Of a stretch of 64,000 bases of DNA, positions 30,060-52,086 are shown in pieces. Within the stretch, counting starts at the first letter, position 1, and every line of letters starts with the position of its first letter. This DNA is from Zunongwangia mangrovi (GTDB taxonomy: Bacteria; Bacteroidota; Bacteroidia; Flavobacteriales; Flavobacteriaceae). Below the pieces are notes generated by a model, which did not search any database, was not told where the DNA came from, and saw only the letters and a list, made by a program, of their open reading frames with translations. A program made the translations under genes and the position numbers. Location: assembly GCF_900112105.1 (NCBI RefSeq), contig NZ_FOKV01000001.1, positions 248,001-312,000 on the forward strand, read 5' to 3'.

Positions 30060-30446
30060 TTAAGCGCTTTGTTCGCTATTTCCGGTTGTTCCCGTTAGCG
30101 TTTTAATATGCAGTTGAAGCATTTCTTTATCTTTCCTTAGATCTTCTTTGTCTTGCTCCAGATCTGCAACACGTTTTTTTAGCTGTGCGTTCTCAGCTTT
30201 TAGCTCCTGTAGGGGGGAATCTTGGGATTGTGTAGGGTGAGATGCCGTTGCAACGGCTAATCGTTCTTCCTCTGGAAGAAATTCTGCGAATTCATACCGT
30301 ATCAATTTTTTAATTGAATCTGGTATTTTTTCTGGTTCCTTTTCATACTTGGATATCGTCTGATACCTTTTCATGCCCAAACGTTGAGCAAATTCCTCTA
30401 AAGTAAGCGAAGATTTATTTCTTAACTCCTTGATATCCAAATACAT
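30060..30446 (-). CDS. XRE-type helix-turn-helix regulator with C-terminal coiled coil
   Basis: 128-aa DNA-binding protein, the best candidate for the element's repressor. Residues 1-45 form a Cro/C1-type HTH (LTLEEFAQRLGMKRYQTISKY), and residues ~75-120 are a leucine-heptad coiled coil (LQELKAENAQLKKRVADLEQ). It is transcribed leftward, away from the early genes, across an intergenic region full of inverted repeats. The gene itself contains one copy of the CCGTTGCAACGG palindrome (30245-30256), read as Ala-Val-Ala-Thr-Ala. Confidence 0.85.
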   Translation of the reverse strand: MYLDIKELRNKSSLTLEEFAQRLGMKRYQTISKYEKEPEKIPDSIKKLIRYEFAEFLPEEERLAVATASHPTQSQDSPLQELKAENAQLKKRVADLEQDKEDLRKDKEMLQLHIKTLTGTTGNSEQSA

Positions 30447-30486
30447 AAATAATAATTATACAAAAGTGCATAAAATACGCTTGCTT

Positions 30487-30573
30487 TATAGTCGCTTTTA
30501 TATATATTTGTATCTGTAAACGACTATTAAAGTATATAAAAAGCGACTAATCGTACACTAATATATGTTAGTG
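30487..30573. promoter_or_regulatory. Divergent operator/promoter region of the early switch
   Basis: Between the leftward regulator and the rightward early genes lie two inverted repeats: TAGTCGCTTTTATATA (30489-30504) with TATATAAAAAGCGACTA (30533-30549), and CACTAA-N6-TTAGTG (30556-30573). An extra CGACTA half-site is at 30521-30526. A -7 box TATATTTG (30503-30510) points right. The arrangement fits repressor control of the early operon. Confidence 0.65.
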
Positions 30574-30593
30574 CACACAAACATACGCAATAT

Positions 30594-30893
30594 ATGAAAA
30601 ATGACCTTACGAAAGCGGAAAGCGCAGAATTAAAGGGCATATTCCCCAGAGGCTACGCAACTATTGTCGCCAATAGTTTAAATACTGCCGGTAAAAAGCC
30701 GTTAAGAGCGAAAAAATATACCGATAAAATGGTACGCGATGTACTTAACCGTAACTCTAAAGACTTCAATATCGTATTGGCGCTATTTCAGTATAAACTG
30801 GAATGTCTTCAGAAACAAGAAGGTCTTAACCAGGTAATGGGCAAAATCGAGAAACTTTCTAAAGATAAAACCGCCGTTGCAACGGCTAATTGA
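30594..30893 (+). CDS. Small early protein, probable DNA-binding regulator
   Basis: 99-aa basic, helical protein; first gene rightward of the operator region, the place of a Cro-like or early activator gene in temperate phages. The stretch KKYTDKMVRDVLNRNSKDFNIVLALF could hold a winged or HTH unit, but I do not recognise a family. It ends in DKTAVATAN, encoded by one of the palindromes (30874-30885). Confidence 0.65.
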   Translation: MKNDLTKAESAELKGIFPRGYATIVANSLNTAGKKPLRAKKYTDKMVRDVLNRNSKDFNIVLALFQYKLECLQKQEGLNQVMGKIEKLSKDKTAVATAN

Positions 30894-30901
30894 TAGAGGG
30901 G

Positions 30902-31114
30902 ATGATTGAGGAAGAAGAACTATTTAAAGCAGATTGGAAGTTCAAAATAAAAACGTATTGGAAAGCTATGCGAAAATCGATTTTTGAGCTTTTTGGATGT
31001 GTTTTTATCTGCGTAATTCAAAGCTGCTATTTTAAAAACCTTACGTGGGCCGTAGTTATTTCTTTTTTCCTTTTAAGCATTTTAACCTATCGAGCAATCA
31101 TGTCTAAAAATTAA
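30902..31114 (+). CDS. Small membrane protein (early region)
   Basis: 70-aa protein from the ATG at 30902 (a TTG at 30890 overlapping the previous stop would add four residues). It has a charged N terminus (MIEEEELFKADWKFKIK) and one or two hydrophobic segments (IFELFGCVFICVIQ and LTWAVVISFFLLSILTY). Function unknown; it is part of a tightly packed rightward run of tiny genes. Confidence 0.6.
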   Translation: MIEEEELFKADWKFKIKTYWKAMRKSIFELFGCVFICVIQSCYFKNLTWAVVISFFLLSILTYRAIMSKN

Positions 31115-31117
31115 GCT

Positions 31118-31357
31118 ATGCAATTACCTAAAGAATGGCTTTTATGGATTAAAAATCATCAAAAAAGCACAGCTGAATTCAAGATAAACCTTAAAGCACA
31201 ACGTATCATCTTTTATTTAGAAATGTGGGCTTTCTTATTTATTCCCACAGGATCATTTATGGTGCAGGCTGCTTATAAGTTGACACATTCAACGTATCAG
31301 GAAGATTACTCAAAGAATCGAGCGAATAAGTGGTGTGCTGAAGATCGCATAAAATAA
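31118..31357 (+). CDS. Small early-region protein
   Basis: 79-aa protein with a central hydrophobic stretch (IIFYLEMWAFLFIPTGSFMVQAAY), so probably membrane-associated; the ends are charged. It starts 3 bp after the preceding stop, and the palindrome at 31368-31379 follows directly after its stop. No family recognised. Confidence 0.55.
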   Translation: MQLPKEWLLWIKNHQKSTAEFKINLKAQRIIFYLEMWAFLFIPTGSFMVQAAYKLTHSTYQEDYSKNRANKWCAEDRIK

Positions 31358-31395
31358 AGTAAAACCGCCGTTGCAACGGCTAAATAGTAAAGCCT

Positions 31396-31524
31396 ATGAT
31401 CGAAATATATAACAAACTGGATCCCATTTTAAAATACATCATAGCCGTGTGGATATGGGGATTTCTTTGCTTAGGGCTAATTTACTTATCTCACTATATC
31501 GAACAAAAATTTAAAAGAAAATGA
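31396..31524 (+). CDS. 42-aa single-TM small protein
   Basis: Short frame MIEIYNKLDPILKY... with one membrane segment (about residues 14-33) and a basic end (EQKFKRK). Its stop overlaps the next ATG as ATGA (31521-31524), which supports real translation. It lies just right of a palindrome copy. Confidence 0.5.
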   Translation: MIEIYNKLDPILKYIIAVWIWGFLCLGLIYLSHYIEQKFKRK

Positions 31525-31628
31525 AACGATTTTTACTCTTTATGGCTGGCTTCCTTCTTCGCGATGCTGTAGAAACTGCCTGGCGTGTGCAACGCAATCA
31601 AAAAACGAAATCTAATAATTCTAAATAA
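31521..31628 (+). CDS. 35-aa small protein
   Basis: Short frame beginning MKRFLLFMAGFLLRDAVE, coupled to the previous gene by an ATGA overlap. It is amphipathic with a hydrophobic N terminus and a basic C terminus (QRNQKTKSNNSK). Support comes only from overlap and tight packing. Confidence 0.45.
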   Translation: MKRFLLFMAGFLLRDAVETAWRVQRNQKTKSNNSK

Positions 31629-31634
31629 ATAAAC

Positions 31635-31766: not shown

Positions 31767-31769
31767 CAA

Positions 31770-31976: not shown

Positions 31977-31979
31977 CAT

Positions 31980-32044: not shown

Positions 32045-32055
32045 TTAAAATTAAA

Positions 32056-32469: not shown

Positions 32470-32526
32470 CAAACATCACCGTTGCAACGGTATTTAAAAG
32501 CAAGTTGAACCTAAATTAAAATAGTT

Positions 32527-32667: not shown

Positions 32668-32958
32668 GTTTTACTACTAAAAAATAAAGGGGAACTCCCC
32701 AGTTCCCCGATAACATGATTTTGATAAATCAAGTAGTCCAATACAAATATACAATAAACCAAGACAATGCAACCCAAAAACATGATAAAAAGATCACAAA
32801 AACACATATCGCAACGGCTTTGCAACGGTACAGTGGCGAGCCGTTGCAACGGCGAAAAAATAATAACAAAACCTGACGGCGAGGCATAGCCTTAGCTTGC
32901 AAATACCGCCGGGATAGTGAGACTTACCCCGGCCTGTATTTGCTTAAAACCAATAATT
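32668..32958. other. Structured intergenic region, candidate replication origin
   Basis: This 291-bp gap holds a perfect hairpin GGGGAACT-CCCC-AGTTCCCC (32689-32708), two half-sites and one full copy of the dispersed palindrome (32822-32828, 32841-32852), and a long imperfect stem pairing GCAAATAC...GCCGGG with CCCCGGC...GTATTTGC (32899-32943). It is GC-richer than its surroundings and lies directly before the probable replication gene, as origins often do. A structured 5' UTR is the alternative. Confidence 0.5.
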
Positions 32959-34758
32959 ATGATAAACCAAGGTAGATCCAACCCAAACCAAGACATTTCT
33001 TTAAAAGGATTGTTGCTTAATCAATTCCCCGATGCTGCAACCCAAGCAACCGCCACTAAAAAGCAAAAATCCTATAGAAAGCCAACATTCACTAAACGCT
33101 GCATTAATCTTAGCATCCAAAATGCGAAGAAAGCAGCGCAGCTCTTTAACCAGGCACAGGCCGAAAAAAGCAAAGGGCTAAAAGAAATTAATGCCGAATA
33201 CAGGCGTGCGCAACGGGAACACCCCCACACTACAGAACAAAAGATTTTGTGGCAAGAGTTTAAGATTGATAACAAGCTGGCCAAGGTAGAACCTATGGAG
33301 TACAATAAACACGTGATCGATTTTAACCGTTGCAACGGCACTAAATTTCTTATGCGCCTATACCAGCCCCTTAAAAACGAACTTGAAACCTTCGAAATCT
33401 TATTAAAATTTTACGTTGCCCAAATTCGCGATCTAAACGCCTGGAAAGAACGTACAAAAATTCATACTACCGGAACACTTCCAAGGCTTCATACCAACTC
33501 AGAGAGCTTAAAAAGGTACAAAATCGACGGGGTAAAGCAGTGCCGATTTAAGAATGATGCTATCTTAGATCATGTACATACATTAGTTGCTGCCGGCATG
33601 CTTATCAATTACAAATCTCACGGCCGCAACGCTGGCTTTTCCCTGCAATTTAACCCTGAAATTTTGGTGGTAGACGAAGCCAAAACCAAAAAATCACAAA
33701 TCACACCAAACCAATCGATTAGCCTTTTTAAAACGGTTAAAACCACCTATAGTGATCATAGTACAGGATCATTACAGAATAAGAATAGAATTAAAGGGGA
33801 TGCCTATGGCCTCCCTGATGAAAGGAACGGTGCTAATGCACCTACGGCAGCTACTGGAAACACTACTGGGTCACCGTCAAGCGAAGGAATGCCTGAAAAA
33901 AAACTAAGCAAAAAAGGTGAAATTTTGGGCCAAAAGGCTAAAGATCTTGCGAGAAAACAGGAACAAAATTCACCGGGCGGCGGCGCGAATCCCGTATCTG
34001 GCCAGTTAACCGAAGCTATACAAGATCCTTGGGAACTATGCCAACAGCTTGCAGCCAATAATTTTGTGCATGCAATGCCTATCGCCATCAAACAACTAGA
34101 GTTTGAAGCTGCTAACGGAACACTTTCACAACCGGTATTTAGAACCTTGCTTTTCCAACAATTCATGAAGTACATTTCGCGCCTTAAGGCGGAAAATCAA
34201 AGTGCTGCCGGTGCATTTTACCGTGCATTTGAAGAACTGGAAGATAAAAAGATGATCAATTTTGCAGGCCGTTACTTCACCAAATCTAAAATGCTGACTG
34301 AATATAAAAAATGGTTGTGGATGGTAGACCATGCCGAACGTTGGGCGAAAAAGCGTAACTGGCAATTCCTGTACATCAATGATTACCTGGACACCACGCG
34401 CCGCGATGCAAAAGAAGTTGGCTTCTGGTATCTGGAGAAACAATTTAAACAAAACGAGAAGAAAAAAGCAGCTCGCAAAGCGCAACGTGCCAAGAAAGCA
34501 CAACAGGCGCAACGGCGAAAATCGGCCATAAAAGCCGATCGCGTAGAGAAATTTGGCTATCGATCCATCAAACCGGGAACCAATCGCAGTACAGATTACG
34601 AGAAAGCGGCCAAAGCGGTTAGAAAATACCTTCACGGAAAAATTACCAGCCAGGAACTGTATTACTACGTAGAAAACAACCTGAATCAAAGCATTCGGGA
34701 AGGTCTTAAGAACATTATTAATAACGAAACTTTAAAACTTAGAACTTATGATGCTTAA
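32959..34758 (+). CDS. Probable replication initiator/primosomal protein
   Basis: 599-aa basic protein from the ATG at 32959 (a GTG at 32917 would add 14 residues but lies inside a hairpin). Around residues 165-215 the layout FKNDAILDHVHTLVAAGMLINYKSHGRNAGFSLQFN is a winged-helix pattern as in plasmid/phage Rep proteins. A Gly/Ala/Ser-rich linker follows, then a helical domain and a Lys/Arg/Ala-rich coiled helix (EKKKAARKAQRAKKAQQAQRR). There is no helicase or primase catalytic motif. Position after an origin-like region supports a replication role. One palindrome copy lies inside (33327), read as Arg-Cys-Asn-Gly. Confidence 0.55.
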   Translation: MINQGRSNPNQDISLKGLLLNQFPDAATQATATKKQKSYRKPTFTKRCINLSIQNAKKAAQLFNQAQAEKSKGLKEINAEYRRAQREHPHTTEQKILWQEFKIDNKLAKVEPMEYNKHVIDFNRCNGTKFLMRLYQPLKNELETFEILLKFYVAQIRDLNAWKERTKIHTTGTLPRLHTNSESLKRYKIDGVKQCRFKNDAILDHVHTLVAAGMLINYKSHGRNAGFSLQFNPEILVVDEAKTKKSQITPNQSISLFKTVKTTYSDHSTGSLQNKNRIKGDAYGLPDERNGANAPTAATGNTTGSPSSEGMPEKKLSKKGEILGQKAKDLARKQEQNSPGGGANPVSGQLTEAIQDPWELCQQLAANNFVHAMPIAIKQLEFEAANGTLSQPVFRTLLFQQFMKYISRLKAENQSAAGAFYRAFEELEDKKMINFAGRYFTKSKMLTEYKKWLWMVDHAERWAKKRNWQFLYINDYLDTTRRDAKEVGFWYLEKQFKQNEKKKAARKAQRAKKAQQAQRRKSAIKADRVEKFGYRSIKPGTNRSTDYEKAAKAVRKYLHGKITSQELYYYVENNLNQSIREGLKNIINNETLKLRTYDA

Positions 34759-35029: not shown

Positions 35030-35040
35030 AATAAGAGAGC

Positions 35041-35424
35041 ATGTGTAGATATCAAATAAAAATAAGTAAAGTGCTTCAAAAAGATCTAATACTTTTTAAA
35101 ATGGCGTTGAACAACTATGTAAGTTTTCAACACGCACTTATAGACATGCTGCCCAATAACGCAGATAATTATAAAATGCGAATAGGCGTAGCAGTAGAAC
35201 TTTACTATGATTTCCATAGCAGGACAGAGAAACAAAAACCGGCAAACCATAGTTTAATAGACCTTCCATTGCATAAGGCAATTGTTTTAAAAGAAGCCTT
35301 GCAAGATCAGGTAAGTCAAAAAACCACTGAAATATGGGAACGCAGCCGTTGCAACGGCTATGTTACGGTGATCGATCAGGCCTTACCTACAGCATTACAA
35401 ATTAAAGCAGCAGCAGTATCATGA
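35041..35424 (+). CDS. 127-aa early-region protein of unknown function
   Basis: Helical soluble protein (MCRYQIKISKVLQKDLILFKMALNN at its start region, HKAIVLKEALQDQVSQ later). It starts 11 bp after the previous stop. The palindrome at 35346-35357 is inside and reads Ser-Arg-Cys-Asn-Gly. No family recognised. Confidence 0.6.
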   Translation: MCRYQIKISKVLQKDLILFKMALNNYVSFQHALIDMLPNNADNYKMRIGVAVELYYDFHSRTEKQKPANHSLIDLPLHKAIVLKEALQDQVSQKTTEIWERSRCNGYVTVIDQALPTALQIKAAAVS

Positions 35425-35521: not shown

Positions 35522-35770
35522 ATGCAACACCAAAGCACCTTACAAGCTATCCCTAAAAAGCTAAAGAAACAGGAAATTTACAGATTATACGGTTGGATGA
35601 GTACCGCCAAGCTTCGAAAAATCATCCACTGGATCCAAAAGGAAGTTCCCTACAATTGCCCGGGCATCACTGAAGAAGAAGCAAAAAGAATGCATTCGCT
35701 GAATGCAAAACAAGTAGAAAAATTATTTGAAGAACTAGGAGCACCGGAAGGTTACAGGGAACCCCTGTAA
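35522..35770 (+). CDS. 82-aa small helical protein
   Basis: Basic N terminus (IPKKLKKQEIYRLYGWMSTAKLRKIIHWI) followed by an acidic helical half (TEEEAKRMHSLNAKQVEKLFEELG). The first part resembles a helix-turn-helix-like unit seen in small excisionase- or replication-associated phage proteins, but no family is assigned. It is the last gene of the early run. Confidence 0.55.
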   Translation: MQHQSTLQAIPKKLKKQEIYRLYGWMSTAKLRKIIHWIQKEVPYNCPGITEEEAKRMHSLNAKQVEKLFEELGAPEGYREPL

Positions 35771-35910: not shown

Positions 35911-36972
35911 ATGAAAATTTTTAACAAGTTTTTTGTATTACCTCTATTACTCTTAGGTTTTTCCTGCACAACCGATAGTATCGACGAGGTTCCTTCTGAA
36001 GAAAATCTCTCCATTGAAGAACAACAAGTAACAACTTTAGAAGTAATTCTCGCAAGAGGTTATGAAAAGTCAGAAATCGAAGATTTCGGAGATTATTACC
36101 TTGTGCAAGGAGACATATTATTTTCAAAAGAAAAATCATATGCTCTAAACTCAAATAGACAAAGGCATACACCGTATATCACAGACCGAACGTTTATTTC
36201 AGTCTATTTGCACCCTAGCATGTCCTCCACGTGGCGCAACGCATCCAGACAAGCTATTACGAGATGGAATAACTTAGAAACTAATTTTCATTTTGTTGAA
36301 ATAACTAACTCATCGGCTGATATCCAAATTATGTATGATTCATCGGCTGGGCAAACTTTAAATGCTAATGAATTTGGAGCTGCACTACCCCCAACGTCTA
36401 ATTTAATGCCTGGTAATTTAATACTTATAAATCCTGATTTTAATGCATGCTCTGGTGGAATCACAGAAACCTTAAGAATAGCAAACGTTCAGCATGAACT
36501 AGGTCATACAATCGGATTAGCCCACACTAATGATTCCTCTGAAAGCTATATTCCTAATACTCCATATAGTGATAGCAATTCAATCATGCAAGGTGGTTAT
36601 GCATGTTCTTTATCTGATTTTTCTACAGGAGATATTGATGCTATACAAATACTTTTCCCTCCAATATTCTGGGCAACTGTTAATGGGCCTAGCCATGGTT
36701 ATCCAGACCAAAACTATACTTGGACTGGTTTAGCTTATGGAGACCTTGGCGAACCACCTTACACATATCACTGGTATAGAAGCATTGATGAAGGAGAAAC
36801 ATACACAATGACATGGGGATCTACCCAATCGGTATACAGTTATATTCCTGAAGGAATGGAAGTTTTACGATTATATTTGGTGGTAACAGACTCTGAAGGT
36901 AATATCGCTAAAAAAAGATTTCAAACAATTAATATGGATTTTGGCGGTGGAGGCCCAAAACCAGGGATGTAA
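35911..36972 (+). CDS. Secreted zinc metalloprotease lipoprotein (M57/M10-like)
   Basis: 353-aa lipoprotein. The signal peptide ends in a lipobox (LLLGFSC, Cys at ~19) with an acidic linker after it. The catalytic domain has HELGHTIGLAH, the metzincin zinc motif HExxHxxGxxH, followed by the Met-turn SIMQGGYAC near residue 228. Residues ~255-345 form an immunoglobulin-like domain. The protein would sit on the cell surface of a lysogen. It has its own terminator and is likely a lysogenic-conversion (moron) gene. Confidence 0.85.
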   Translation: MKIFNKFFVLPLLLLGFSCTTDSIDEVPSEENLSIEEQQVTTLEVILARGYEKSEIEDFGDYYLVQGDILFSKEKSYALNSNRQRHTPYITDRTFISVYLHPSMSSTWRNASRQAITRWNNLETNFHFVEITNSSADIQIMYDSSAGQTLNANEFGAALPPTSNLMPGNLILINPDFNACSGGITETLRIANVQHELGHTIGLAHTNDSSESYIPNTPYSDSNSIMQGGYACSLSDFSTGDIDAIQILFPPIFWATVNGPSHGYPDQNYTWTGLAYGDLGEPPYTYHWYRSIDEGETYTMTWGSTQSVYSYIPEGMEVLRLYLVVTDSEGNIAKKRFQTINMDFGGGGPKPGM

Positions 36973-36983
36973 AGAATAGATAT

Positions 36984-37012
36984 AGAAAAGCCGTCATAAG
37001 ACGGCTTTTCTG
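36984..37012 (+). terminator. Terminator of metalloprotease gene
   Basis: Stem AGAAAAGCCGTC / GACGGCTTTTCT with loop ATAA begins 12 bp past the stop codon; only a short T-rich tail follows. Confidence 0.85.
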
Positions 37013-37180
37013 ATTTTAAATATACTTAATTCTCTGGGAGAAAGGACTCAAGTGACTTTTATCTAAAACTCCTCAATTATTTAAACTTAAATATCGCGAT
37101 AAATTCTTAATGATTTATTCGAATAAAAGCATAATCATAATCGTTTATTAGCCGTTGCAACGGTGATTAAATCTAAGCTT

Positions 37181-37669
37181 ATGAAATTTTCAGAAGAAAA
37201 TATAATCAACTCACCTAACGGCCAATATATAGCTACACAAATATCAAAAGATAACAAAAATACTTTCTATTTAGGCACTTCTAGATTAATTTCAGTAAAT
37301 AAAAAAGACGTTTTTAATACTAAATATGGCATCGCTACACTTATTACAAACATTGCAAACAGATCTGAAGTTCAAATTTTAAAAATCGGACCTACATCGA
37401 ATCTAAACAAATGGCTTTCATTTTACCAAAAAGAAATACATGATTTCCAATTATTAAAAAGTGGAATGTAAAAAACCCATTACCCTTAGAGGATACTATT
37501 ATAGATTATTTCGCTAAATCTAACTACGATTCATTTGGGCGTGAATGGTTCTGGGGGTAATAAGGACTTTAAATTACGACTAATTAATCAAACTGAATGG
37601 TTTATAGAAAACAGCTATGAACCTACGAATGCATTTCGATCGCACTACAATTACCTTTTTAAAATCTAA
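37181..37669 (+). pseudogene. Frameshifted gene remnant after a palindrome copy
   Basis: A 96-aa frame (37181-37471, MKFSEENIINSPNG...) is followed without a gap by coding-like sequence in other frames. Shifting once in the A5 run (37456-37460) and once in the G5 run (37553-37557) gives a continuous protein that goes on through KWNVKNPLPLEDTIIDYF, SFGREWFWGNKDFKL and WFIENSYEPTNAFRSHYNYL to a stop at 37669. Either the gene is broken or these are homopolymer sequencing errors. The intact product would have about 160 residues; no family recognised. Confidence 0.55.
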
Positions 37670-37693
37670 CGCAATATCTCTAACGGATTTCAT

Positions 37694-37733
37694 AAAAAAA
37701 GCCCGTATTGCGTGACAATACGGGCTTTTATTT
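37694..37733. terminator. Bidirectional terminator
   Basis: Strong stem AAAAGCCCGTATTG / CAATACGGGCTTTT with a short loop and T-run, just after the frameshifted gene. Confidence 0.85.
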
Positions 37734-37927
37734 AATTCTAATAAAGGCTTAAAAACCTCCTAAATCTTTTTTACTACTTAAATTCTTCTCAATTTTGCTC
37801 ATAATAGGTCTAGTTTTAATCTATTCTCGTATTTAAAGATAAGAACATTTTTATCTTTATCTTATAAATTCATGTTATTTAACAACGTACTTGTCATTTT
37901 AATATTGCGCTAATATAAAAATAATTA
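37734..37927. other. AT-rich non-coding gap
   Basis: AT-rich DNA between the terminator and the DUF4760-like gene; I see no gene or clear structure in it. Confidence 0.5.
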
Positions 37928-38590
37928 TTAATTAGGCTCGCCCCAATCCCTACATAACTTAACAAAATCTTCCCAGCATTTTTCGTGCCCTTTCTCACTT
38001 TGAGCATCTTTTATGTAACTGTGTAATGTAATATAAATATTGTAGAACATCGAATGCATAGCGTCTTTTATAATATCCTCATCAATAAATTCCTTCTTTA
38101 TTTGAATAGCAATATTTTCGAATGAGTTTAAAAGTAAATGCAACCTTGAATGATCCTTTGGGTTTTTTGAAAGATGCTCCTTAAAAGGTTCTACATTTGA
38201 ATTCTTTATTAAATTCGGAACTTCTCGTTTTAATTCGCGATAAGCCCTTAGTGATTCTACCATCTCAGGTTTATAGAACTGAGAAATTATCAAATAACTC
38301 CTTTCACACTTCTTATTATAAAGATTTTTTTCATTGAAAGCTTTGGTCTCTTCCATTTGCTCTTGCTTGAACTTCTTATCTCTTTCGCCATTAATTGTAT
38401 GCAATATAAAAGTTAAGATAGCAACAGATCCTGTAGCAAAAAACATAACATCTCTAAAGTTAAAGTCATCTAAGATCCATAAGAAAAGAACTAAACCTAT
38501 AATTAGAGGTATGCAAAGAGTAAGAAAAACTCCACTAAGAATAAAATTTACTTGTTTATCTTTTAACATTTTACGGAAAAATTTCATCAA
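37928..38590 (-). CDS. Membrane-anchored DUF4760-like protein
   Basis: 220-aa protein with two N-terminal membrane segments (residues ~14-40 and 46-66) and a long helical cytoplasmic domain: RAYRELKREVPNL, then LLNSFENIAIQIKKEFIDEDIIKD, the pattern typical of DUF4760. Such proteins are frequent singletons in genomic islands; function unknown. It opens the second cargo block and is transcribed against the phage core genes. Confidence 0.6.
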   Translation of the reverse strand: MMKFFRKMLKDKQVNFILSGVFLTLCIPLIIGLVLFLWILDDFNFRDVMFFATGSVAILTFILHTINGERDKKFKQEQMEETKAFNEKNLYNKKCERSYLIISQFYKPEMVESLRAYRELKREVPNLIKNSNVEPFKEHLSKNPKDHSRLHLLLNSFENIAIQIKKEFIDEDIIKDAMHSMFYNIYITLHSYIKDAQSEKGHEKCWEDFVKLCRDWGEPN

Positions 38591-38793
38591 ATATATAAAA
38601 ATATATAATTAACGCTTGTCTCTAAAAAATTAGTAATAAACATTGATTTACGTTTATGATATAGAACCTGAGAACAACATCCACACTTAATCCGACTTAT
38701 TTGTATTTTAACGACATAATAAGTATATTTTAGCAAAAAAAGTCACCTATTTCGATTAAAAACAGGTATTTTTACAAACTAATTCTTTAAAAA

Positions 38794-38976
38794 ATGTCTA
38801 AAGAAAATAAATTCGAATCTCAAAACACGGTATTGGTAAGAGCTATAGGCCTTCTTACGGGTAAAGTCATATTCGAAAGCAATGATGCTCTAAAAGTAAT
38901 TGAGCAAGCTGAAAAATCAGGAGAGGAGTTTATTTTAGATTTTGAAACTAATCCAGATTATCAATTCATATTTTGA
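38794..38976 (+). CDS. 60-aa protein coupled to the aspartyl protease
   Basis: Small acidic protein (MSKENKFESQNTVLVRA...). The stop (TGA) overlaps the TTG start of the next gene, so the two form a coupled pair. It may be a chaperone, inhibitor or partner of the protease; no family recognised. Confidence 0.6.
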   Translation: MSKENKFESQNTVLVRAIGLLTGKVIFESNDALKVIEQAEKSGEEFILDFETNPDYQFIF

Positions 38977-39398
38977 GTAGATCTTCGTATCCGTTAACAA
39001 TTGATAATAAGAATCAATTAAAACCAAAATTACCATTAAAGTTAACTAATCCTGAAAATGGAAAGTGTATATCCGTATTAGCTTTAGTTGATAGCGGAGC
39101 TGAAAAATGTACTTTTCCTATGATGATAGCAATTAATCTTGGAATCCCCTTAAACAAATCAACTGAATCAAAGACAAGAACAGCAGGTATTTCTGGACAG
39201 GGCTTGGAAACATATTCATTTAAAATCAAAATTGATATTCTCAACATGCAAAGAAATTCGATTGTGAAAACTATGAATTTAGAAGTCTCTTTTATTAAAA
39301 ATAATTCAATTCCCCCATTAGTTGGCACAGCTGATTTTCTCGAGAATTTTAATCTTATGATCAACTATCCACAAAAAAGTTTAACTTTAGAATGGTAG
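38973..39398 (+). CDS. Retropepsin-like aspartyl protease
   Basis: 141-aa single-domain aspartic protease of retropepsin type. The catalytic signature VLALVDSGAEKCTFP is near residues 28-43, the flap-like segment is TAGISGQGLETYS, and the C-terminal strand LVGTADFLENFNLMINYPQKS matches the second conserved region. It would act as a homodimer. The start is TTG at 38973 overlapping the preceding TGA; no upstream ATG exists. The pair with the 60-aa protein is typical of small toxin-like or defence cassettes (inference). Confidence 0.78.
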   Translation: MSRSSYPLTIDNKNQLKPKLPLKLTNPENGKCISVLALVDSGAEKCTFPMMIAINLGIPLNKSTESKTRTAGISGQGLETYSFKIKIDILNMQRNSIVKTMNLEVSFIKNNSIPPLVGTADFLENFNLMINYPQKSLTLEW

Positions 39399-39444
39399 AT
39401 TTCACTAGAAATTAAAAAATTCTGCACTAAAACTATCTGATAAA

Positions 39445-39475
39445 AAAACCGTTAAGAATTTTAACGGTTTTCTAA
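39445..39475. terminator. Terminator after the protease pair
   Basis: Stem AAAACCGTTAA / TTAACGGTTTT with a short loop and T-rich tail, 47 bp after the protease stop. Confidence 0.75.
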
Positions 39476-39612
39476 TTTAGATGTAATGAAACGCGTTCAA
39501 ATTCTTCAAAATTTGACGAAATTCTTTATTCTACGATCGCCTAGTACAATTTTCGGTTAAATAATTCTTAATTCCAATAATTTAGATTAAATTCTATTCT
39601 ATCAATTAACTT

Positions 39613-40101
39613 TTACCTTACAAAGTTTATCTTTTGATTAGAATCAATAAGTCTCAAAATACCTAAATCTTGCCTAAGACTATTTCTAAACCCGGTACGT
39701 TTTAGCCAAATTTTATCTAATTGTTGATCATTATATTTTGTCCCTAACGCTAGCTCAGCTTTCGAAGCTTCTATTAATTCATAAAAGCAATTCAATGAGT
39801 TATCGGAGAGAATTAGGTTTACTTCACCTGTCTTCCAATCTCGTAAACCATTAATTAGAGTTTTATAAATACCAGGTAAATCATCTTCATCACGGATTCG
39901 TTTACCAAGCAAGTCTGTTAATTCGAATGCTCTGCCGTAATATTTAAGCCTTAATTCATTAAGTTTTTCGCCATATCTAGCAGATATTTCTCTTTCCAGA
40001 TTTAACTTATCATTTCTACTTTTTCTAACAGCCAAATAATACGTAATTGAAGAACTAAATATACTTGCTGAAATAGAAATAATCATATCTAAACTATCCA
40101 T
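39613..40101 (-). CDS. 162-aa protein with N-terminal membrane segment
   Basis: Residues ~4-25 form a membrane segment (MIISISASIFSSSITYYLAV), followed by a basic helix (RKSRNDKLNLEREISARYGEKLNELRLKYYGRAFEL) and a helical domain. It looks like a membrane-tethered coiled-coil protein; unrecognised. It lies 14 bp downstream of the 260-aa gene and is likely co-transcribed with it. Confidence 0.6.
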   Translation of the reverse strand: MDSLDMIISISASIFSSSITYYLAVRKSRNDKLNLEREISARYGEKLNELRLKYYGRAFELTDLLGKRIRDEDDLPGIYKTLINGLRDWKTGEVNLILSDNSLNCFYELIEASKAELALGTKYNDQQLDKIWLKRTGFRNSLRQDLGILRLIDSNQKINFVR

Positions 40102-40115
40102 CTTAAAATCTAATA

Positions 40116-40898
40116 CTAATGAAATTTAATCTCAAAAACCATGTAATTAGTTTTTAGATGATTGTCGTTTTCTTCGGCTCCCAAATGTAAATGTTTCCCC
40201 TTATAGAAAACATTAGAATAATCATCCTCCCAATATTTTGTAGACTTCCCTTTTGTATCTGAGGTAGAAATTAAAATATAAGTCCCCTCTTTTAAAGCTG
40301 CAGAGCCACCCCCTTGAGGAAAATCAGAATGTAAACTTATATCATCCTCATCCCAAATCGGATCATCTTTTACGACCATTTCTGCAATACCGTCATAAAT
40401 CTCTGTTCCTAGCTTAATATAGTCAAGCGCTCCACCTAGATTCAAATATTCCCCAATACTAGTATTTTGAATCATTCCAGTTACCTTTGATATATCAAAC
40501 TTTTCATCAATCTCATCAAGCTTAACTTTCAAGAATAGTTCTTCTCCGTAATTAACATTCTTAAAGATTTTTCTATGTAGGAACCCTCCAGGAGAAGTTC
40601 CATCTTTCACCCTAAAGTCTCTTACAAATGAAGCTTCATTTAAATCAGCATTATTATCATTAGATGGATAATATTTAACATTAAACTTTAAAATCGCCTC
40701 ATTCATCTTAGACCAATCGGGCAAATCATGACAATAAAAAGCTGTTAAGTTTATATCACATAATTTATTTCTAATAGAATCACCATCACCCCCCAAATAT
40801 TCTGCTAATTTGACCGAATAAAATATGTTAGGATTTTGAATATTAGCTCCGTTAAGATCTACGAATAAAAGTTGAGTATTTTCCAATTGTCTTGCCAT
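40116..40898 (-). CDS. Uncharacterised 260-aa beta-rich protein
   Basis: Soluble mixed alpha/beta protein starting MARQLENTQLLFVDLNGANI at 40898; a longer frame to 40934 is less likely. C-terminal part is beta-rich with many Asp/Gly turns (EGTYILISTSDTKG, GKHLHLGAEENDNHLKTNYMVFEIKF). I do not recognise the family. With the 162-aa membrane-tethered protein it forms a two-gene leftward unit, transcribed against the adjacent phage core genes. Confidence 0.6.
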   Translation of the reverse strand: MARQLENTQLLFVDLNGANIQNPNIFYSVKLAEYLGGDGDSIRNKLCDINLTAFYCHDLPDWSKMNEAILKFNVKYYPSNDNNADLNEASFVRDFRVKDGTSPGGFLHRKIFKNVNYGEELFLKVKLDEIDEKFDISKVTGMIQNTSIGEYLNLGGALDYIKLGTEIYDGIAEMVVKDDPIWDEDDISLHSDFPQGGGSAALKEGTYILISTSDTKGKSTKYWEDDYSNVFYKGKHLHLGAEENDNHLKTNYMVFEIKFH

Positions 40899-41157
40899 AA
40901 TAATTTTATTTGATTGATAATCAGAAATATACAATTAAACCGAATTAAATACTATACCCAATGTCAGGTATTTTCTTAATTACAGGAAACATAATATCTC
41001 CCTCTTTATTGGAATAATTTAAAATGCGTTTAAATTATTCAAAATTCTATTTTATAGCAGAAAGTTAGATCGAATTCGATGCAGTTCGACTATATCCTTC
41101 AGCTCCAAGATTTCCCTTCCCCATCTTGCAGGCCTAAACAAGTAAGAAAAAGCTTCA

Positions 41158-42777
41158 ATGGCTGTAACGCAGGAACAAAACGCATCACTTAAGCGCAATC
41201 TGAAACCAGGAAAACAGTACGAGAAATTGATCCCGGCGGTAAGTTGTGCCTCTACAGATCTTGGGCAAGGTGATACCTTCCATACTGTAGATGAAATGCG
41301 AGATTGGATTATTAAGTATGCCTGGCAAACAAAAGAACTTGCCGCCCTGCTTTACAGTCAAGATTTAAGGTTATTGGCACATAATATTTATAAATTTTCT
41401 TACGATCACATTCAATATAACGCAGACGGCGCATTGCAACAAATTTCTTCTCCTGCATGCACCTGGCATAAAAGAAAAGAAGGTGTAGACTGTAAAAGCT
41501 TTTCGGTTTTCGCAAGCTCCATTCTCTCAAATCTAGGCATCAAACACGCCATTCGCCAGGTACGTCAACCATATTTCAATCCTGAACACTGGACACATGT
41601 ATATGTTGTGATCTATCAAGACCAAAACCCGGAAAGCTATTCTAAAAATGCACCAACGTTCGTAATTGATGCAACAAGGCATCACAATCAAGAAGTTAAT
41701 TATTTAGAAAAACATGATCTTATGATGCTACAGCACGTTGGTCTTAATGCACCTTCTAATGTGTTAAGTGCAGAAAAGCAGAACATTATTGATAATTTCA
41801 ATAAGTTTTGCCTTTTCCTATTAGAAAATAATGTTCCCGTTGCAACGGTAAATGCCATTCGCAGCGAAGTGAATAAATATACCTCGCAAGGTGTAGATCC
41901 TCAGTTTGCTATTATTGATAACGGTATTAGCATTCAAGGCAAAGAATTTACATTCACCTTAGTCTCAGACCCGGAATATCAAAGAGGTTTAGGGATAGTT
42001 GTTACCGGCACTGCTGCTGTAGCTGCTGGTAAAGCCTTAATGAATATGTTACCACAGGATTTCTTCGGAAATACCTTTGGTGCCATTTTCGCAAATGGTT
42101 TCGACCTTTCCTGCTGGAATGCCAGTTACTCCGAAAGTAAAGCACAATCTGCATTACAAACCGATATTCCTTTCTTTATCAATGATCACGCTGGTCTTGA
42201 TAAGGCCGTTAACACCACAACGGTTAACAAGTTTATGAATGCCATAGATGCATACATAGCAGATTCAAAAAACGGACAAGCCTCAAAATACGCAAGCTGT
42301 ACTCGTAAAGGCTATGCAGCACGACAAAAAGGAGCTGAAGAAGCTAAACAGCGTGTACTACAAACTTTGGAAAGTTCAGGTTTAACCTTAGTTCCCACCG
42401 GGAAAAAAGAGGGTTTTCTGCAAACAGAAAAACCGATGCCCAGTATTGGCAAACCTTATACATGGGGAGCTGAGTTTGGTAGCAAATACGCTTATCAATA
42501 TGATAGTTACCGTGTAGAAGGCGGAAACCAATCATCAACACCAAATTATGATGATGTAGTAACTACAGATCAGGATTTGAATATGGGAGGCAATACCAAT
42601 CCTGGAAGCAATTATCAAAACGGCGGAAACAACCAGGTTCCTATTGGTAACACCAATCAGGGAGCTAGTCAGGCCGGTATGGGATGGCTCGCACCAGTAG
42701 CCATTGCAGCTATTTCTATCCCAATGGTAATGAAGCAAATGAAACAGGGAAACGCAACTACTAAAACTAAAAAGTAA
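41158..42777 (+). CDS. Virion-module protein with transglutaminase-like (cysteine protease) domain
   Basis: 539-aa protein. Residues ~50-180 form a transglutaminase-like fold with a complete triad: Cys112 (GVDCKSFSVF), His147 (HWTHVYVV) and Asp171 (FVIDATRHHN). It may process capsid proteins or cut peptide cross-links in the cell wall. A central helical region follows, then a Gly/Asn/Gln-rich linker and a C-terminal membrane segment (GWLAPVAIAAISIPMVM, ~507-523) with a basic tail. It is the first gene of the late rightward module and is coupled to the next gene (TAATG overlap). One palindrome copy lies inside (41837). Confidence 0.75.
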   Translation: MAVTQEQNASLKRNLKPGKQYEKLIPAVSCASTDLGQGDTFHTVDEMRDWIIKYAWQTKELAALLYSQDLRLLAHNIYKFSYDHIQYNADGALQQISSPACTWHKRKEGVDCKSFSVFASSILSNLGIKHAIRQVRQPYFNPEHWTHVYVVIYQDQNPESYSKNAPTFVIDATRHHNQEVNYLEKHDLMMLQHVGLNAPSNVLSAEKQNIIDNFNKFCLFLLENNVPVATVNAIRSEVNKYTSQGVDPQFAIIDNGISIQGKEFTFTLVSDPEYQRGLGIVVTGTAAVAAGKALMNMLPQDFFGNTFGAIFANGFDLSCWNASYSESKAQSALQTDIPFFINDHAGLDKAVNTTTVNKFMNAIDAYIADSKNGQASKYASCTRKGYAARQKGAEEAKQRVLQTLESSGLTLVPTGKKEGFLQTEKPMPSIGKPYTWGAEFGSKYAYQYDSYRVEGGNQSSTPNYDDVVTTDQDLNMGGNTNPGSNYQNGGNNQVPIGNTNQGASQAGMGWLAPVAIAAISIPMVMKQMKQGNATTKTKK

Positions 42778-43418
42778 TGCAGCTGGGTATCATCACATCA
42801 TTAATCCGTTCTATCAATTTGGACAGCTCGAAAACTACTTTTCAGAATAGCTTGGCACAGCTACTATTAGTTGTGCAATGCAATGAAGAAGCAAATTTGG
42901 ACAGCCATGTGCATAATGATGTAGAACAATGGTTTAATGATACCTTCAAAGCCTTTTTTGAGAGCCGTTGCAACGCCGTTGCAACGGTAGAAGATACCAA
43001 TAAGCTTATTCGAGATCTAGCCGTTGCAACGGCTTATTACCGTGCCAAAAGTAATGAATCCATTATCAGCAGTATTGGCGATGTAGAGCTTGCTAAAACT
43101 GAAGTGCTTACACAGGTAATAACCGCCATAGAAAATACGCTTAAGGCCATTCTAACAGATCCAGCTTTTCAGGTAAAAAGAACCTTGGCCAGTGAAACAG
43201 GAGTAGAAAAGTTAGAAAACTACAAGTGGCCGGGTGATGAAACTTTGGTAGCACATGCCTGGTATTATGATAAAGCCGTTGCAACGGCGGCAGAAACTCC
43301 GATAAATGATTCTTCGGTAGTCCCAAAAAACCCTCCACCTGCTGAGAAAAGCTGGTTGGATAAACATTTCAAAAAGATAGCACTAGCCGGAATGGTCGTG
43401 AATCTTTTAAAAAAGTAA
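42777..43418 (+). CDS. 213-aa late-module protein with C-terminal hydrophobic segment
   Basis: Helical protein of unknown family, translationally coupled to the transglutaminase-like gene (start overlaps its stop). The C terminus (LDKHFKKIALAGMVVNLLKK) is a short amphipathic or membrane-peripheral helix. The gene is unusually dense in the dispersed palindrome: three full copies (42975, 43021, 43276) and one 11-bp partial (42964), so within 325 bp the coding sequence has absorbed four Ala-Val-Ala-Thr or Arg-Cys-Asn strings. Confidence 0.65.
   Translation: MQLGIITSLIRSINLDSSKTTFQNSLAQLLLVVQCNEEANLDSHVHNDVEQWFNDTFKAFFESRCNAVATVEDTNKLIRDLAVATAYYRAKSNESIISSIGDVELAKTEVLTQVITAIENTLKAILTDPAFQVKRTLASETGVEKLENYKWPGDETLVAHAWYYDKAVATAAETPINDSSVVPKNPPPAEKSWLDKHFKKIALAGMVVNLLKK
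42964..42986. repeat. Tandem overlapping palindrome copies
   Basis: An 11-bp partial copy (CCGTTGCAACG) runs straight into a full copy (CCGTTGCAACGG). The first is read Arg-Cys-Asn, the second Ala-Val-Ala-Thr, in one continuous frame. Confidence 0.9.
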
Positions 43419-46279: not shown

Positions 46280-46286
46280 TAAAATT

Positions 46287-48108: not shown

Positions 48109-48113
48109 TACAA

Positions 48114-51100
48114 ATGGGAGTAGGAAAAGTAGTTGATCGTGTTGGATGGGGTAACAGTAATACTGAAATCCCTGAAAGCCTATTACAGGATATTGAGAAA
48201 CTAAAAAATGCGCAAAAGAAAACTATTGATCTTGGTAACATCAATGCTCTGGCAATAGAAAAAGCCTTTAACAATAAGGCTCTGGAAAATTACCAGGCTT
48301 ACGGCACCAGTTTCGAAATTCCAGCAACAGGTTATGTTCAGGTTACAGCTACTCAAAATGAAAAAGAAGTAGTTTGGCTTTTTACCGGTGCTGCTGGTTC
48401 TTATAATGGAAATACAAAATTAGCGACTGCCGGGGATTTTACCAGAATTTCTTTTGATGGCCAGGTAGATCTTGAAGCTATTCGCTCAGCTCTTGGTGAT
48501 TCTCCAGTCCTTGCCGGTGGGAATACTAGTGATACGGCTCAAACGCTTAGAGAGGATACTGATACAAGTTTAGAAGGCGATGATCTACAGTTTAGCACCA
48601 AAGCTAAAAAAATCAACATTAAAAGGTTTAAAAGTAAATTTAAACCTACTCCATTTTTTAATGATGATTTTACTGATTTAGTAAATAATAAAGATGAATT
48701 TCTTGATAATCCTACTGAGGGAAGATATTCATATCCCTCAGTTATGGCGGGTGGCACTAAAGATACAAGCAAATTAAGGAATATTTTTCATGCAGCTTTA
48801 TATGCTAGTTTGACAAATGATCAAAGTGTAGCAAATGCTGTAGCCGAAGAATTTGTAATTAGACTGCTGGCAAATGATCTACAAGATCCTGGCACATTTG
48901 AGCATCCTGTTGGCACTATAGAATGGATAGGAGGTGCTTATTTCCATTTCGCTACGAATATTAAGAAAATGCACAAAGCATTTGAATTGATTTACAACAT
49001 TCAAAATGTTTGGACAAATAAGAACATATCGGATATAAAAAATTATTTTAAGGACTTTAATACCATTCTTTGGAATTATTATGAACGTAAAATACCTGCT
49101 GTTTTAGGGGTTGATTGGAAAGAAGGAAACTTTGCTATCCCATCATATCTTACCACAACACTTCATTATCCAATAGAAAATTCAGATGGCACCCCAAACA
49201 TAGATTTTGTAGTAACCAATTTCCAAGAAGCAATATTCAATAATAGAATGTTTGATATCGTGGGGTATATTCATCATTGGGCTGTTAATAATAACGACAC
49301 TCCAAAAGAAGTCGCTATGAGAAACCACGTAAAAATGTGGTGTAAATATGCGATGTTTACGGACGGTACTTTATACGAAATATACAGAAACTCTTCTGAT
49401 GATAGAAACAAAGGGGTATTCTACAGTAACATAACGCTATGCCATGTCATAGATATAGCTCATCTAGATGCAATGGCAAACCATTTTCCAGGTGATCGCC
49501 TATATGATTATGAAACTACGGAAGGTATAGAACAGGGAAGTATTAATCTTACCAATATTATTTACACTGGTTCATCAACAACTGATGGAGTTACGCCAAA
49601 AAACATAAAAAAAGCAATACTTAATGTTTCTAAGTATTTAAGATCAAGTGCAAATGGCGGGTTTAATGATCTTAGATATTTTGAAGGCGTTCCTTTGGAT
49701 TCCTCGCAAAGAAATGTTGAAAATAATACTTTTCCACGCTATAATTCCATTGTTCCTGCTATCGCTAATTACTATTACAATGATCCCGAATTGGAAGATT
49801 ATTACTTATACAACACGGATGCTGGCTATCCTCAAAAACAAATAGTTAGTGAAGGTATTGTAAAAGTAGAAGATTGGGGAGCAAACGAAATATTTATAAT
49901 TGGAAATTTATGGATACAGCACGAATTTAATATTTTCGATCCTAAATATTTTGGAAAAAAAAATATCTCAGCATACCAGGCAAAATTAGAGCCTATATCA
50001 AACTTATTATCGAGAAACTCACAAGATGCTTTAAAGGAAATCAATGAAAAGACTGAGGATTTAAAGGCAAATACTACAGGGTATAAAAGTCAAGTTTTCT
50101 TTATCGATGAAACCGGAAGGGAAGTTAGTTTTAATAGAAATTCATTTCTTGAATTACTAACGGTTTTCTTCAACCAGGACAATGATCTATTTTATTCAGC
50201 ATTAACAGGAAAAGGCTTTAAAGCTAGAAGTAATTATCCATCACTTCGCTTAACCAATAATAGTGGCCCAGGGAATGCAATTACAGGGGACTGGACATGG
50301 CAAACACACCCTTCTGGTTATTTTCTACTTATTAACTCGCTCACGAATGAACCCGTCATGTACATCCATAAAAGTATGTCAGAGGGTAGTATAGTTTTCA
50401 ATAACGATCGATTAGGAATGGGAGTTGGCAATGCACCCCTGGAACAAATTCACATTGCCGAAAATATCAAAGCGAATATTGGAAAATTCCAAAGTCTTGA
50501 AGTACCTGGATATCAAAAAACTGAAATTATTGATGTTCCCAATGCTGCTACTTATGTACTCAACCGAAATTCAAAAATAAGTGCATTACACCTTAAGGAA
50601 GGAACTACAGATCAAAGCTTCAGTATTAATAAGAATAGTTTAGAAGATCACGATGTAACGCATTACAAAGTTATGCGTGGTCGTGTAGCAGGAAAACTTA
50701 CACTTGATAATAGCGGAGAAGCTATACCGCAATGCCAAATTCTAACACCGAAAGGCAAATCTAACCAGGTTATTCAAGGTGGTGTGGTCGATATTTATTT
50801 TTTCTCTAGTGTGTTATCAAATGGCACTTGGTATTATTACTGGCTAGCTAGCGGAGATCTACAAGATATTTTTATCTCCGATACATCAAAGACGATTAAC
50901 GCAGGTGGTGGAAGCTTTGAACTCACGATAGCGACTTTATACGAATGGTCGGTAGATGATAATTCCGATTGGATAAGCTTTTCCAAGACTTCGGGTGTAG
51001 GTAGTGATAAGATAACCGTTACAATCGATGCAAACGCTACTCCCGAAATTGGTCGAGTAGCCAATATTGAAATCTCAGACGGTCACGTATCAGAAACGCT

Positions 51101-51125
51101 TCAAATACAACAAAACGCACAATAA
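48114..51125 (+). CDS. Large spike/receptor-binding protein with BACON domain
   Basis: 1003-aa protein. Residues 1-~190 form an attachment domain (ending with AKKINIKRFKSKFKP). Residues ~200-620 are helical and resemble an alpha/alpha-toroid polysaccharide lyase (MFTDGTLYEIYRNS; DLRYFEGVPLDSSQRN; YNSIVPAIANYYYN). A tail-fibre-like part has GMGVGNAPLEQIHIAENIKANIG (~780-800). The C-terminal ~86 residues are a BACON domain (WSVDDNSDWISFSKTSG; ITVTIDANATPEIGR; HVSETLQIQQNA). It likely binds or cleaves a surface glycan. Lyase activity is inferred, not proven. Confidence 0.65.
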   Translation: MGVGKVVDRVGWGNSNTEIPESLLQDIEKLKNAQKKTIDLGNINALAIEKAFNNKALENYQAYGTSFEIPATGYVQVTATQNEKEVVWLFTGAAGSYNGNTKLATAGDFTRISFDGQVDLEAIRSALGDSPVLAGGNTSDTAQTLREDTDTSLEGDDLQFSTKAKKINIKRFKSKFKPTPFFNDDFTDLVNNKDEFLDNPTEGRYSYPSVMAGGTKDTSKLRNIFHAALYASLTNDQSVANAVAEEFVIRLLANDLQDPGTFEHPVGTIEWIGGAYFHFATNIKKMHKAFELIYNIQNVWTNKNISDIKNYFKDFNTILWNYYERKIPAVLGVDWKEGNFAIPSYLTTTLHYPIENSDGTPNIDFVVTNFQEAIFNNRMFDIVGYIHHWAVNNNDTPKEVAMRNHVKMWCKYAMFTDGTLYEIYRNSSDDRNKGVFYSNITLCHVIDIAHLDAMANHFPGDRLYDYETTEGIEQGSINLTNIIYTGSSTTDGVTPKNIKKAILNVSKYLRSSANGGFNDLRYFEGVPLDSSQRNVENNTFPRYNSIVPAIANYYYNDPELEDYYLYNTDAGYPQKQIVSEGIVKVEDWGANEIFIIGNLWIQHEFNIFDPKYFGKKNISAYQAKLEPISNLLSRNSQDALKEINEKTEDLKANTTGYKSQVFFIDETGREVSFNRNSFLELLTVFFNQDNDLFYSALTGKGFKARSNYPSLRLTNNSGPGNAITGDWTWQTHPSGYFLLINSLTNEPVMYIHKSMSEGSIVFNNDRLGMGVGNAPLEQIHIAENIKANIGKFQSLEVPGYQKTEIIDVPNAATYVLNRNSKISALHLKEGTTDQSFSINKNSLEDHDVTHYKVMRGRVAGKLTLDNSGEAIPQCQILTPKGKSNQVIQGGVVDIYFFSSVLSNGTWYYYWLASGDLQDIFISDTSKTINAGGGSFELTIATLYEWSVDDNSDWISFSKTSGVGSDKITVTIDANATPEIGRVANIEISDGHVSETLQIQQNAQ

Positions 51126-51164
51126 TCAATTCATCATAATTTTTTAATTCATCATTCATCAATC

Positions 51165-51422
51165 ATGAAAACAATTTTCAATTATCTCGAAAAAAGAGAT
51201 TGGTATTTACAACTACTAATCGGCGCTGTACTGGCAATTCTCGCACTAGCCTTGTGTGCCGTTTTCAACGGTCATGATATCCAGGCAATAATCGTAGTAA
51301 CACTATTAGCTGTTTTTAAAGAACATTACCTGGAGCATAGAACAGAAGAAGCCTTTCATTGGCGAAATTTCTTGCTTCTTATTTTACCGGTAGTTATAGG
51401 CTTCATCATCCTACACTATTAA
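51165..51422 (+). CDS. Small multi-TM protein, holin candidate
   Basis: 85-aa protein with two to three membrane segments (LLIGAVLAILALALCAVF; AIIVVTLLAVF; FLLLILPVVIGFIILHY). Size and topology suit a holin, and it lies between the spike and a secreted protein. The ATCATTCATCAAT leader precedes it. Family not recognised. Confidence 0.6.
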   Translation: MKTIFNYLEKRDWYLQLLIGAVLAILALALCAVFNGHDIQAIIVVTLLAVFKEHYLEHRTEEAFHWRNFLLLILPVVIGFIILHY

Positions 51423-51471
51423 CATCTGGCTTTTTCTTACATCATTCATCAATCATTAAACATTCATCATT

Positions 51472-52086
51472 ATGAAACGATTTGTATTTCTAGCACTTTG
51501 CTCATTTTTAACCCCGGTATTGTTTTCATCAATAACAGTTGCTCAGGAAACCACAATAACTGAAAAGTTTGAAAAGGCCGATCAGGAATTTAGTAAGACC
51601 GAAGCTTCTAAGCAATTTGAGCTAAGTGTATCAAAAGAACTTATAGCAATATCTGAAGCCGTTGCAACGGCTAATGAAGATCAGATCCTTACCAATCATC
51701 CAACACTACCAAAATTGTTAGATGAATTTGTAGATCATGCCCGATATGAGCATATAAACTACGTACCGATACTTCAGAAATTAGAAAAGGTAGCATTCAT
51801 ACAGGCTAATCACAATTTTCTCGGGGCCGTTCTGGAAAAAGGTAAAACCATTGTCTTAAATGAATTTTTGTTAGAACGCCCAAAACTGCTGAAGGTGGTG
51901 TTCTTTCATACGATGGGAACGCTTTACGAAGTGGCTACAACCGATAATCCTGGTCACGCCATTATGGGTGAGCATTGGGTAAATGATAGCAAGCACGAAT
52001 GGATAGCCGAAGAAGTGATGAAACGTCCATATTGGCGCACCCGGTATTTCAAGAAACTTGCTGAAAAACACGGCACTTCAATCTAA
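51472..52086 (+). CDS. Secreted protein resembling a degenerate zinc metallopeptidase
   Basis: 204-aa protein with a signal peptide (MKRFVFLALCSFLTPVLFSSITVAQ). Near residue 146 it has VVFFHTMGTLYEV, in the position where a metzincin-like family would have HExGH, followed by GHAIMGEHW, like a Met-turn region. Glu and the second His are replaced, so it is probably catalytically dead, or the likeness is chance. One palindrome copy (51659) encodes AVATAN. The leader motif is upstream. Confidence 0.55.
   Translation: MKRFVFLALCSFLTPVLFSSITVAQETTITEKFEKADQEFSKTEASKQFELSVSKELIAISEAVATANEDQILTNHPTLPKLLDEFVDHARYEHINYVPILQKLEKVAFIQANHNFLGAVLEKGKTIVLNEFLLERPKLLKVVFFHTMGTLYEVATTDNPGHAIMGEHWVNDSKHEWIAEEVMKRPYWRTRYFKKLAEKHGTSI

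Follow-up and report, generated by a model that had tools for sequence, protein, structure and literature searches.

The 64,000-nucleotide stretch of the Zunongwangia mangrovi genome analysed here (the window) carries a 33.7-kb phage-like integrated element in which a 12-bp perfect palindrome, CCGTTGCAACGG, occurs 13 times between positions 30245 and 51670. The palindrome is specific to the element, and about half of the related loci that we compared have dispersed palindromes with the same TTGCAA core. In the relatives these sites often form pairs at helical intervals and are concentrated at the start of the gene for a transglutaminase-like protein (TG), the marker gene of the family. We propose, with a probability of about 45%, that the 12-mer is the target of a DNA-binding protein encoded by the element, probably a dimer, which binds cooperatively on one face of the helix and switches expression from early to structural genes; the likeliest candidate is an 82-aa product, p82.

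Palindromic sites in the element

The 13 exact copies reported in the initial annotation were confirmed, and no copy arose in 100 dinucleotide-preserving shuffles. The extensions to 14–16 bp and the partial copies that it described were also found: the 14-bp form GCCGTTGCAACGGC is present at eight of the 13 copies, three (35346, 43021 and 51659) read as 16 bp from their flanks, and three near copies were recovered at up to two mismatches, at 42965 (11/12), 32817 (10/12) and 45170 (10/12). Weight-matrix scores were 24.9–33.0 bits for the exact sites and then fell sharply to 20.9, 13.4 and 12.2; site quality is all-or-none. HIP1-like palindromes are frequent throughout the genomes of their hosts. 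In contrast, when CCGTTGCAACGG was counted across all 32 contigs (4.13 Mb) of the present host, as the initial annotation had suggested, every one of the 13 copies lay within the element and none outside it.

The claim that the sites are confined to the core of the element held, but their distribution there is uneven, with eight in 30.2–37.2 kb, four in 41.8–43.3 kb, one at 51.7 kb, and none in the part of the element from 24.1 to 30.2 kb. Nine of the 13 lie within called open reading frames (ORFs), where they translate as (A/P)VAT in seven cases and as RCN in two, and four are intergenic; one of the ORFs is on the minus strand. Sites on both strands, in two reading frames and between genes had been described before, and all were seen again.

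All 13 numbered sites are exact matches. Site 1 (30245–30256), the one in a minus-strand ORF, is inside the gene of a helix-turn-helix (HTH) regulator, and site 2 (30874–30885) occupies the final codons of ORF 30594–30893. Sites 3 (31368–31379) and 4 (32479–32490) are intergenic, as is site 5 (32841–32852), which lies 5′ of ORF 32917 and is adjoined by the degenerate 10/12 site (32817–32828) detected by both mismatch search and weight matrix. Site 6 (33327–33338) is within ORF 32917–34758, site 7 (35346–35357) within ORF 35041–35424, site 8 (37152–37163) is intergenic and 5′ of a small ORF, and site 9 (41837–41848) is within the TG gene. Sites 10 (42976–42987), 11 (43021–43032) and 12 (43276–43287) share ORF 42777–43418, and the 11/12 site found by mismatch search (42965–42976) forms a tandem pair with site 10, 11 bp apart. 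Site 13 (51659–51670) is within ORF 51472–52086. Sites 2 and 3 have a 24-base stretch in common. The non-coding region 32800–32960, 5′ of the gene for a 613-aa protein, combines site 5, the degenerate site and half-sites, and is possibly an origin or a regulatory region.

A common core with element-specific flanks

The comparison set comprised 70 loci including the window, nearly all found through the TG gene. TG relatives occurred in 16 of 397 genomes of the family (host included), in 15 of 395 genomes of an order sample that overlaps the family sample, and in 41 of 398 genomes sampled from the genus of G604; from this last survey, four of 47 TG places (G771, G981 and two of the three in G841) were left out of the set. 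Loci cut by contig ends include G179a, G179b, G079, G1051, G841 and G842; neither G179a nor G179b yielded an ORF of the TG family.

The exact 12-mer CCGTTGCAACGG was present in only five of the 70 loci (13 copies in the window, three in G778, two each in G604 and G878a, one in G1056), and the first 16 relatives' loci had none. TTGCAA was the most enriched of the 64 six-base palindromes in 26 of the 70 loci, against about one expected by rank alone; in the window it ranks second, with the eight-base form GTTGCAAC far ahead. One dominant symmetric flank was found in 34 loci (the motif loci): G (GTTGCAAC) in nine, the window among them, A (ATTGCAAT) in 13 and T (TTTGCAAA) in 12. The other 36 belong to no TTGCAA class under this flank rule. 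Conservation in related elements, which had been proposed as a check on the motif, was limited to four other loci for the exact 12-mer, but the core recurs with element-specific flanks.

Dispersed words private to a locus were CCGGTTGC in G039, TTTGCAAA together with CGTTGCAA in G117, CGTTGCAA in G604, ATTGCAAT in G627, TCAATTGA in two G500 loci and GCAACAACCC in G255. In the five hosts counted genome-wide such words pile up in the element: CCGGTTGC has 15 of its 50 genome copies within 12.3 kb in G039, CGTTGCAA has 19 of 72 within 18.2 kb in G604, ATTGCAAT has 13 of 151 in a 38-kb contig in G627, TCAATTGA has 10 in 7.9 kb and 11 in 7.4 kb of 195 in G500, and YTTTGCAAA has 19 forward copies of 205 in a 34.9-kb contig in G117. 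In the TG alignment the window's site was ungapped against six of the 10 other rows (G144, G039, G143, G195, G093 and G255), with gaps in the other four. Sites inside the TG genes of G144 (where the word is AGATCT, itself weak), G039, G604 and G117 occupy other alignment columns, so that site density rather than position seems to be kept. As an upper bound, 293 of the 357 sites in the motif loci fall inside some ORF of at least 60 aa.

The spacing of these 357 sites was then analysed. Of site pairs no more than 60 bp apart, 45 of 55 were separated by 10–11 or 20–23 bp and four more by 32–33 bp. Some pairs are inherited copies; with look-alike pairs removed, 30 of 39 were still in phase, and these came from 17 of the 34 loci and from all three flank classes. 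TTGCAA pairs in motif loci numbered 148 at six phased lags versus 238 at 119 other lags, and no comparable excess was given by the control palindromes AAGCTT (0 phased, 49 other), CAATTG (2 and 45) and ATCGAT (0 and 15). The phased pair of the window is 42965/42976. Of the 34 motif loci, 30 also had a site at −250 to +60 relative to the start of TG, where 4.7 were expected from other intervals of the same loci. The sites look like real protein sites that are bound cooperatively and whose outer bases vary between elements. The earlier claim of a dispersed binding site acting at the DNA level thus gains support from element-specificity, in the window and in five relatives' hosts, from the ungapped TG site and from the helical phasing of pairs.

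Candidate ligands and possible functions

The presence of one form of p82, type A, is the best association with the motif that was found. In the window p82 is a type A protein (35522–35770, plus strand; pI 9.3) encoded 5′ of TG, with cargo in between. Type A was found in 39 loci, 34 of which are motif loci, so that every motif locus has it; no motif locus is among the 19 loci with other p82 types or the 12 in which p82 was not found. In all 39 loci type A is encoded on the same strand as TG, and p82 is basic (pI 7.8–10.1 in the nine computed). Four assignments of p82 were made by hand (G973a and G973b, missed by the length filter, G128 and G500a), and the p82 of G866 is of another type by the type-A word, though type A by eye. 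The other ligands considered were present in fewer motif loci, p613 and p93 in 20 of 34 each and p127 in 26 of 34. From these patterns we infer that p82 binds the site.

Given that sites lie near the start of TG as well as within early genes, the most economical interpretation is an early-to-late switch. The HTH regulator would probably hold the divergent early promoter. Once the early operon is on, p82, as the last conserved early gene ahead of the structural block, would accumulate and bind both the sites where the TG/structural operon begins and those within early genes, and this binding would shift expression from early to structural genes. To our knowledge, the site of phi29 p6 is not a strict short palindrome. 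The closest working precedent for such a switch appears to be the phi29 p4/p6 system, described in two reports as early phage proteins that jointly bind DNA and switch early to late transcription, with p6 also organising the genome (PMC3100819, PMC10899789). A switch like that of phi29 would call for a site 5′ of the structural operon, which 30 of the 34 motif loci have at the TG start and the window does not, and for multimeric binding in helical phase, to which the site spacings of 10–11 and 20–23 bp may correspond.

Several observations weigh against this proposal. Both the motif-locus rule and the C-terminal word (P/A)x(G/N)(Y/F) by which type A was recognised were set after the data had been seen, and the Fisher value for type A versus motif (4.5e-11, 58 loci with p82) is based on counts that take no account of shared ancestry. 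Three loci whose p82 is of another type, G500a and G500b (TCAATTGA) and G255 (GCAACAACCC), nevertheless have a private dispersed word, which therefore does not require type A; conversely, five type-A loci (G903b, G144, G039, G193 and G195) are not motif loci, G039 having CCGGTTGC. When motif class was predicted from the nearest neighbour over all pairs, p82 was correct in 29/32 cases, p131 in 31/33, ArdC in 30/32, p127 in 25/26 and TG in 27/34. With neighbours limited to a similarity below 0.6, a cut not comparable between proteins, p82 still scored 29/32, falling to 18/32 below 0.4 and 5/32 below 0.3. A number of structural proteins occur as widely as p82 and, since over all pairs they predict the class about equally well, the association could stem from shared backbone ancestry. 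p82 has no Pfam match, PF14053 included, and its single-sequence structure model is weak (pLDDT 58.6). TTGCAA pairs in non-motif loci also lean to phased lags (9, versus 39 at the 119 others). Finally, the window has no site at its own TG start, perhaps because cargo lies there, and G117, G878b and G1116 have none by the words used, G117 having two copies of CGTTGCAA there.

Profile searches against solved structures gave nothing convincing, and the structure model of p202, made without an alignment, reached a pLDDT of 36. A possible family for p82 was suggested by small proteins encoded 5′ of TG in three relatives (three of the five scanned), which match DUF4248 (PF14053) and have a short C-terminal stretch in common with p82. 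In hhalign, p82 scored a probability of 35 (E 4.1e-04, 26 columns) against a profile built from only the three PF14053 proteins, and 77 when two G500 proteins lacking a Pfam match were added. The identification of p82 as DUF4248 was not kept, given the missing Pfam match and a probability of only 35 against the PF14053 proteins alone; the relation is weak.

We consider it unlikely that the sites serve instead to silence a prophage, with a repressor of the quiescent state bound at dispersed, stoperator-like positions to block transcription within the element. Sites are indeed dense in the early operon and inside genes, and mycobacteriophage L5 provides a precedent, with more than 20 operator/stoperator sites dispersed over the genome of this temperate phage (PMC9283540). 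Like the 13 of 13 genome copies here, these are many copies over one temperate element. The L5 site, however, is an asymmetric 13-mer to which a monomer binds, oriented with transcription and placed in promoters and short intergenic spaces, whereas those of the window are perfect palindromes, nine of 13 inside ORFs, and none lies in the early promoter (30447–30593). The HTH protein would be the obvious repressor, yet its occurrence does not follow that of the motif, and the promoter of the window has other repeats. Moreover, p82 type A is on the strand of the early operon, and repression of the early promoter should therefore keep it off.

A genome-organising role, in which a protein would coat or bridge the element DNA for replication, copy control or packaging in the manner of phi29 p6 or MatP/matS, strikes us as no likelier than silencing. 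It fits the many sites, often in genes, with pairs at 11 and 21–22 bp, and the several structural proteins common to nearly all motif loci, but not the concentration of sites in the early region and round TG, and the site that recurs where TG begins suggests transcription instead. MatP has a 13-bp target, matS, that recurs within a single DNA domain (PMC3330122); there are 23 matS copies over 800 kb of host chromosome, compared with 13 sites in a 33.7-kb element here.

The initial annotation had named the HTH regulator at 30060 as the first candidate ligand, a claim that now appears quite improbable. The protein (30060–30446, minus strand) has an HTH_3 domain (Pfam, 5.4e-07) together with a coiled coil, and a site lies inside its gene. 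Counting the window, this is so in five of the 19 motif loci with an HTH gene of this kind, and it is also so in G039. However, 19 of 34 motif loci and 16 of 36 others have an HTH-coiled-coil regulator (p = 0.47); among the ATTGCAAT loci it was found in only one of 13, and only one of the 19 has a site in the 150 nt 5′ of the gene. The divergent early promoter has no palindrome site; it contains a different inverted repeat, TAGTCGCTTTT/AAAAGCGACTA (30489–30549), which is likely to be the regulator's own operator. On this sequence comparison the HTH protein should be replaced as the proposed ligand. That the palindrome is a mobile, copied or neutral repeat with no function is barely credible: the 13 copies are exactly identical and two share 24 bases, but the TG site is ungapped against six rows while relatives' sites lie elsewhere, the same core has different flanks in different loci, and pairs are helically phased.

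Other regulators of several sites are known. The KorB operators of plasmid RK2 are palindromic and 12 in number. They are dispersed operators controlling one mobile element and offer a further precedent for silencing, and KorB differs in being a ParB-type CTP clamp (PMC11790492). Among the 30 window proteins scanned with Pfam, which are part of its ORFs, none matched the ParB family. A family with element-specific flank variants of a common core, helically phased and largely in ORFs, looks like a new variant of such systems. It is a doubtful further step to regard p82-type proteins as a large class of sequence-specific regulators of flavobacterial proviruses, which would keep the TTGCAA core, switch the flank base (G, A or T) and give each element some 5–20 dispersed, phased sites for self-versus-other addressing largely in coding DNA; the weak DUF4248 link lowers its standing. 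More generally, the proposal matches a tiny protein of no named family to sites that can be seen in the sequence, in a group of phage-like elements that is common among flavobacteria. Because the flank base varies naturally, the evolution of binding specificity could be read from it.

The element and minor observations

The element is integrated at a tRNA-Leu gene between the copies of a 53-bp direct repeat, at 24144–24196 and, within the tRNA, at 57839–57891. It encodes a tyrosine-type integrase (56476–57867, minus strand; Pfam Phage_integrase, E 1.4e-05, slightly below the curated cut-off) and the 613-aa early protein (32917–34758, plus strand), which has BLAST matches in eight of the first 16 relatives' loci and neither a Pfam nor a PHROG match. 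The TG gene (41158–42777, plus strand) was recognised from a weak Pfam match to DUF553 (E 0.04, under the cut-off) and from its relatives. A GH108 protein is also encoded, as are two large proteins. One, of 929 aa, combines ArdC and zincin-like domains with an ATPase match at the C terminus; the other, of 1003 aa, is similar to Cellulophaga phage proteins whose annotation is structural or pectate lyase. No terminase or portal was seen among the 30 proteins scanned with Pfam and 10 with PHROGs, which cover part of the ORFs, and the element is treated broadly as a phage-like integrative element. Probable cargo occupies 24447–29937 and 35911–40934, free of sites apart from that at 37152, with matches to Beta_protein (PF14350), a PIN domain, a matrixin-like protease and, weakly, an aspartyl protease.

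TG relatives were found neither in phage records nor in a protein search of genome contigs. A protein search of viral contigs, which detects close relatives only, gave none for the TG of the window, G604 or G627, nor for the GH108 and 929-aa proteins. Two Persicobacter plasmids, CP012856.1 (47.6 kb) and CP012854.1 (48.8 kb), encode TG relatives, and these plasmid-sized records are possibly extrachromosomal forms of such elements. Our literature search found no paper combining TTGCAA, palindrome and Flavobacterium, and none judged fitting for the element type.

An exact search of genome contigs with GCCGTTGCAACGGCTA returned 95 stretches, and a 14-mer search of viral contigs at least 120. Among the loci compared at that stage, two or more 12-mers outside the host occurred only in L084, L103, L149, L163 and L271. 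L271, from a genome of the same genus (G397), has two exact 12-mers 4.4 kb apart (C2:1580961 and 1585329), near ORFs that by eye resemble an integrase and a small HTH protein; no protein in the 60 kb round it matched the element of the window.

Some palindrome-free loci (G255, G143, G1010, G816, G803, G812 and G459) have a leader word specific to the element, which mostly runs in one direction and frequently lies no more than 60 nt 5′ of a start codon: ACCAAATAAATACCA occurs 13 times in G255 (10 so placed), ACTATTTAAAAT 10 times in G143 (eight) and ACCATTAA 20 times in G1010 (12). In the window, TCATTCATCA occurs three times in leader-like places (43949, 51152 and 51442). G193 has another near-palindrome, AAAATCCNNNNGGATTTT, with 12 of its 17 genome copies within C4:1156275–1169463 and C11:2409–6737.

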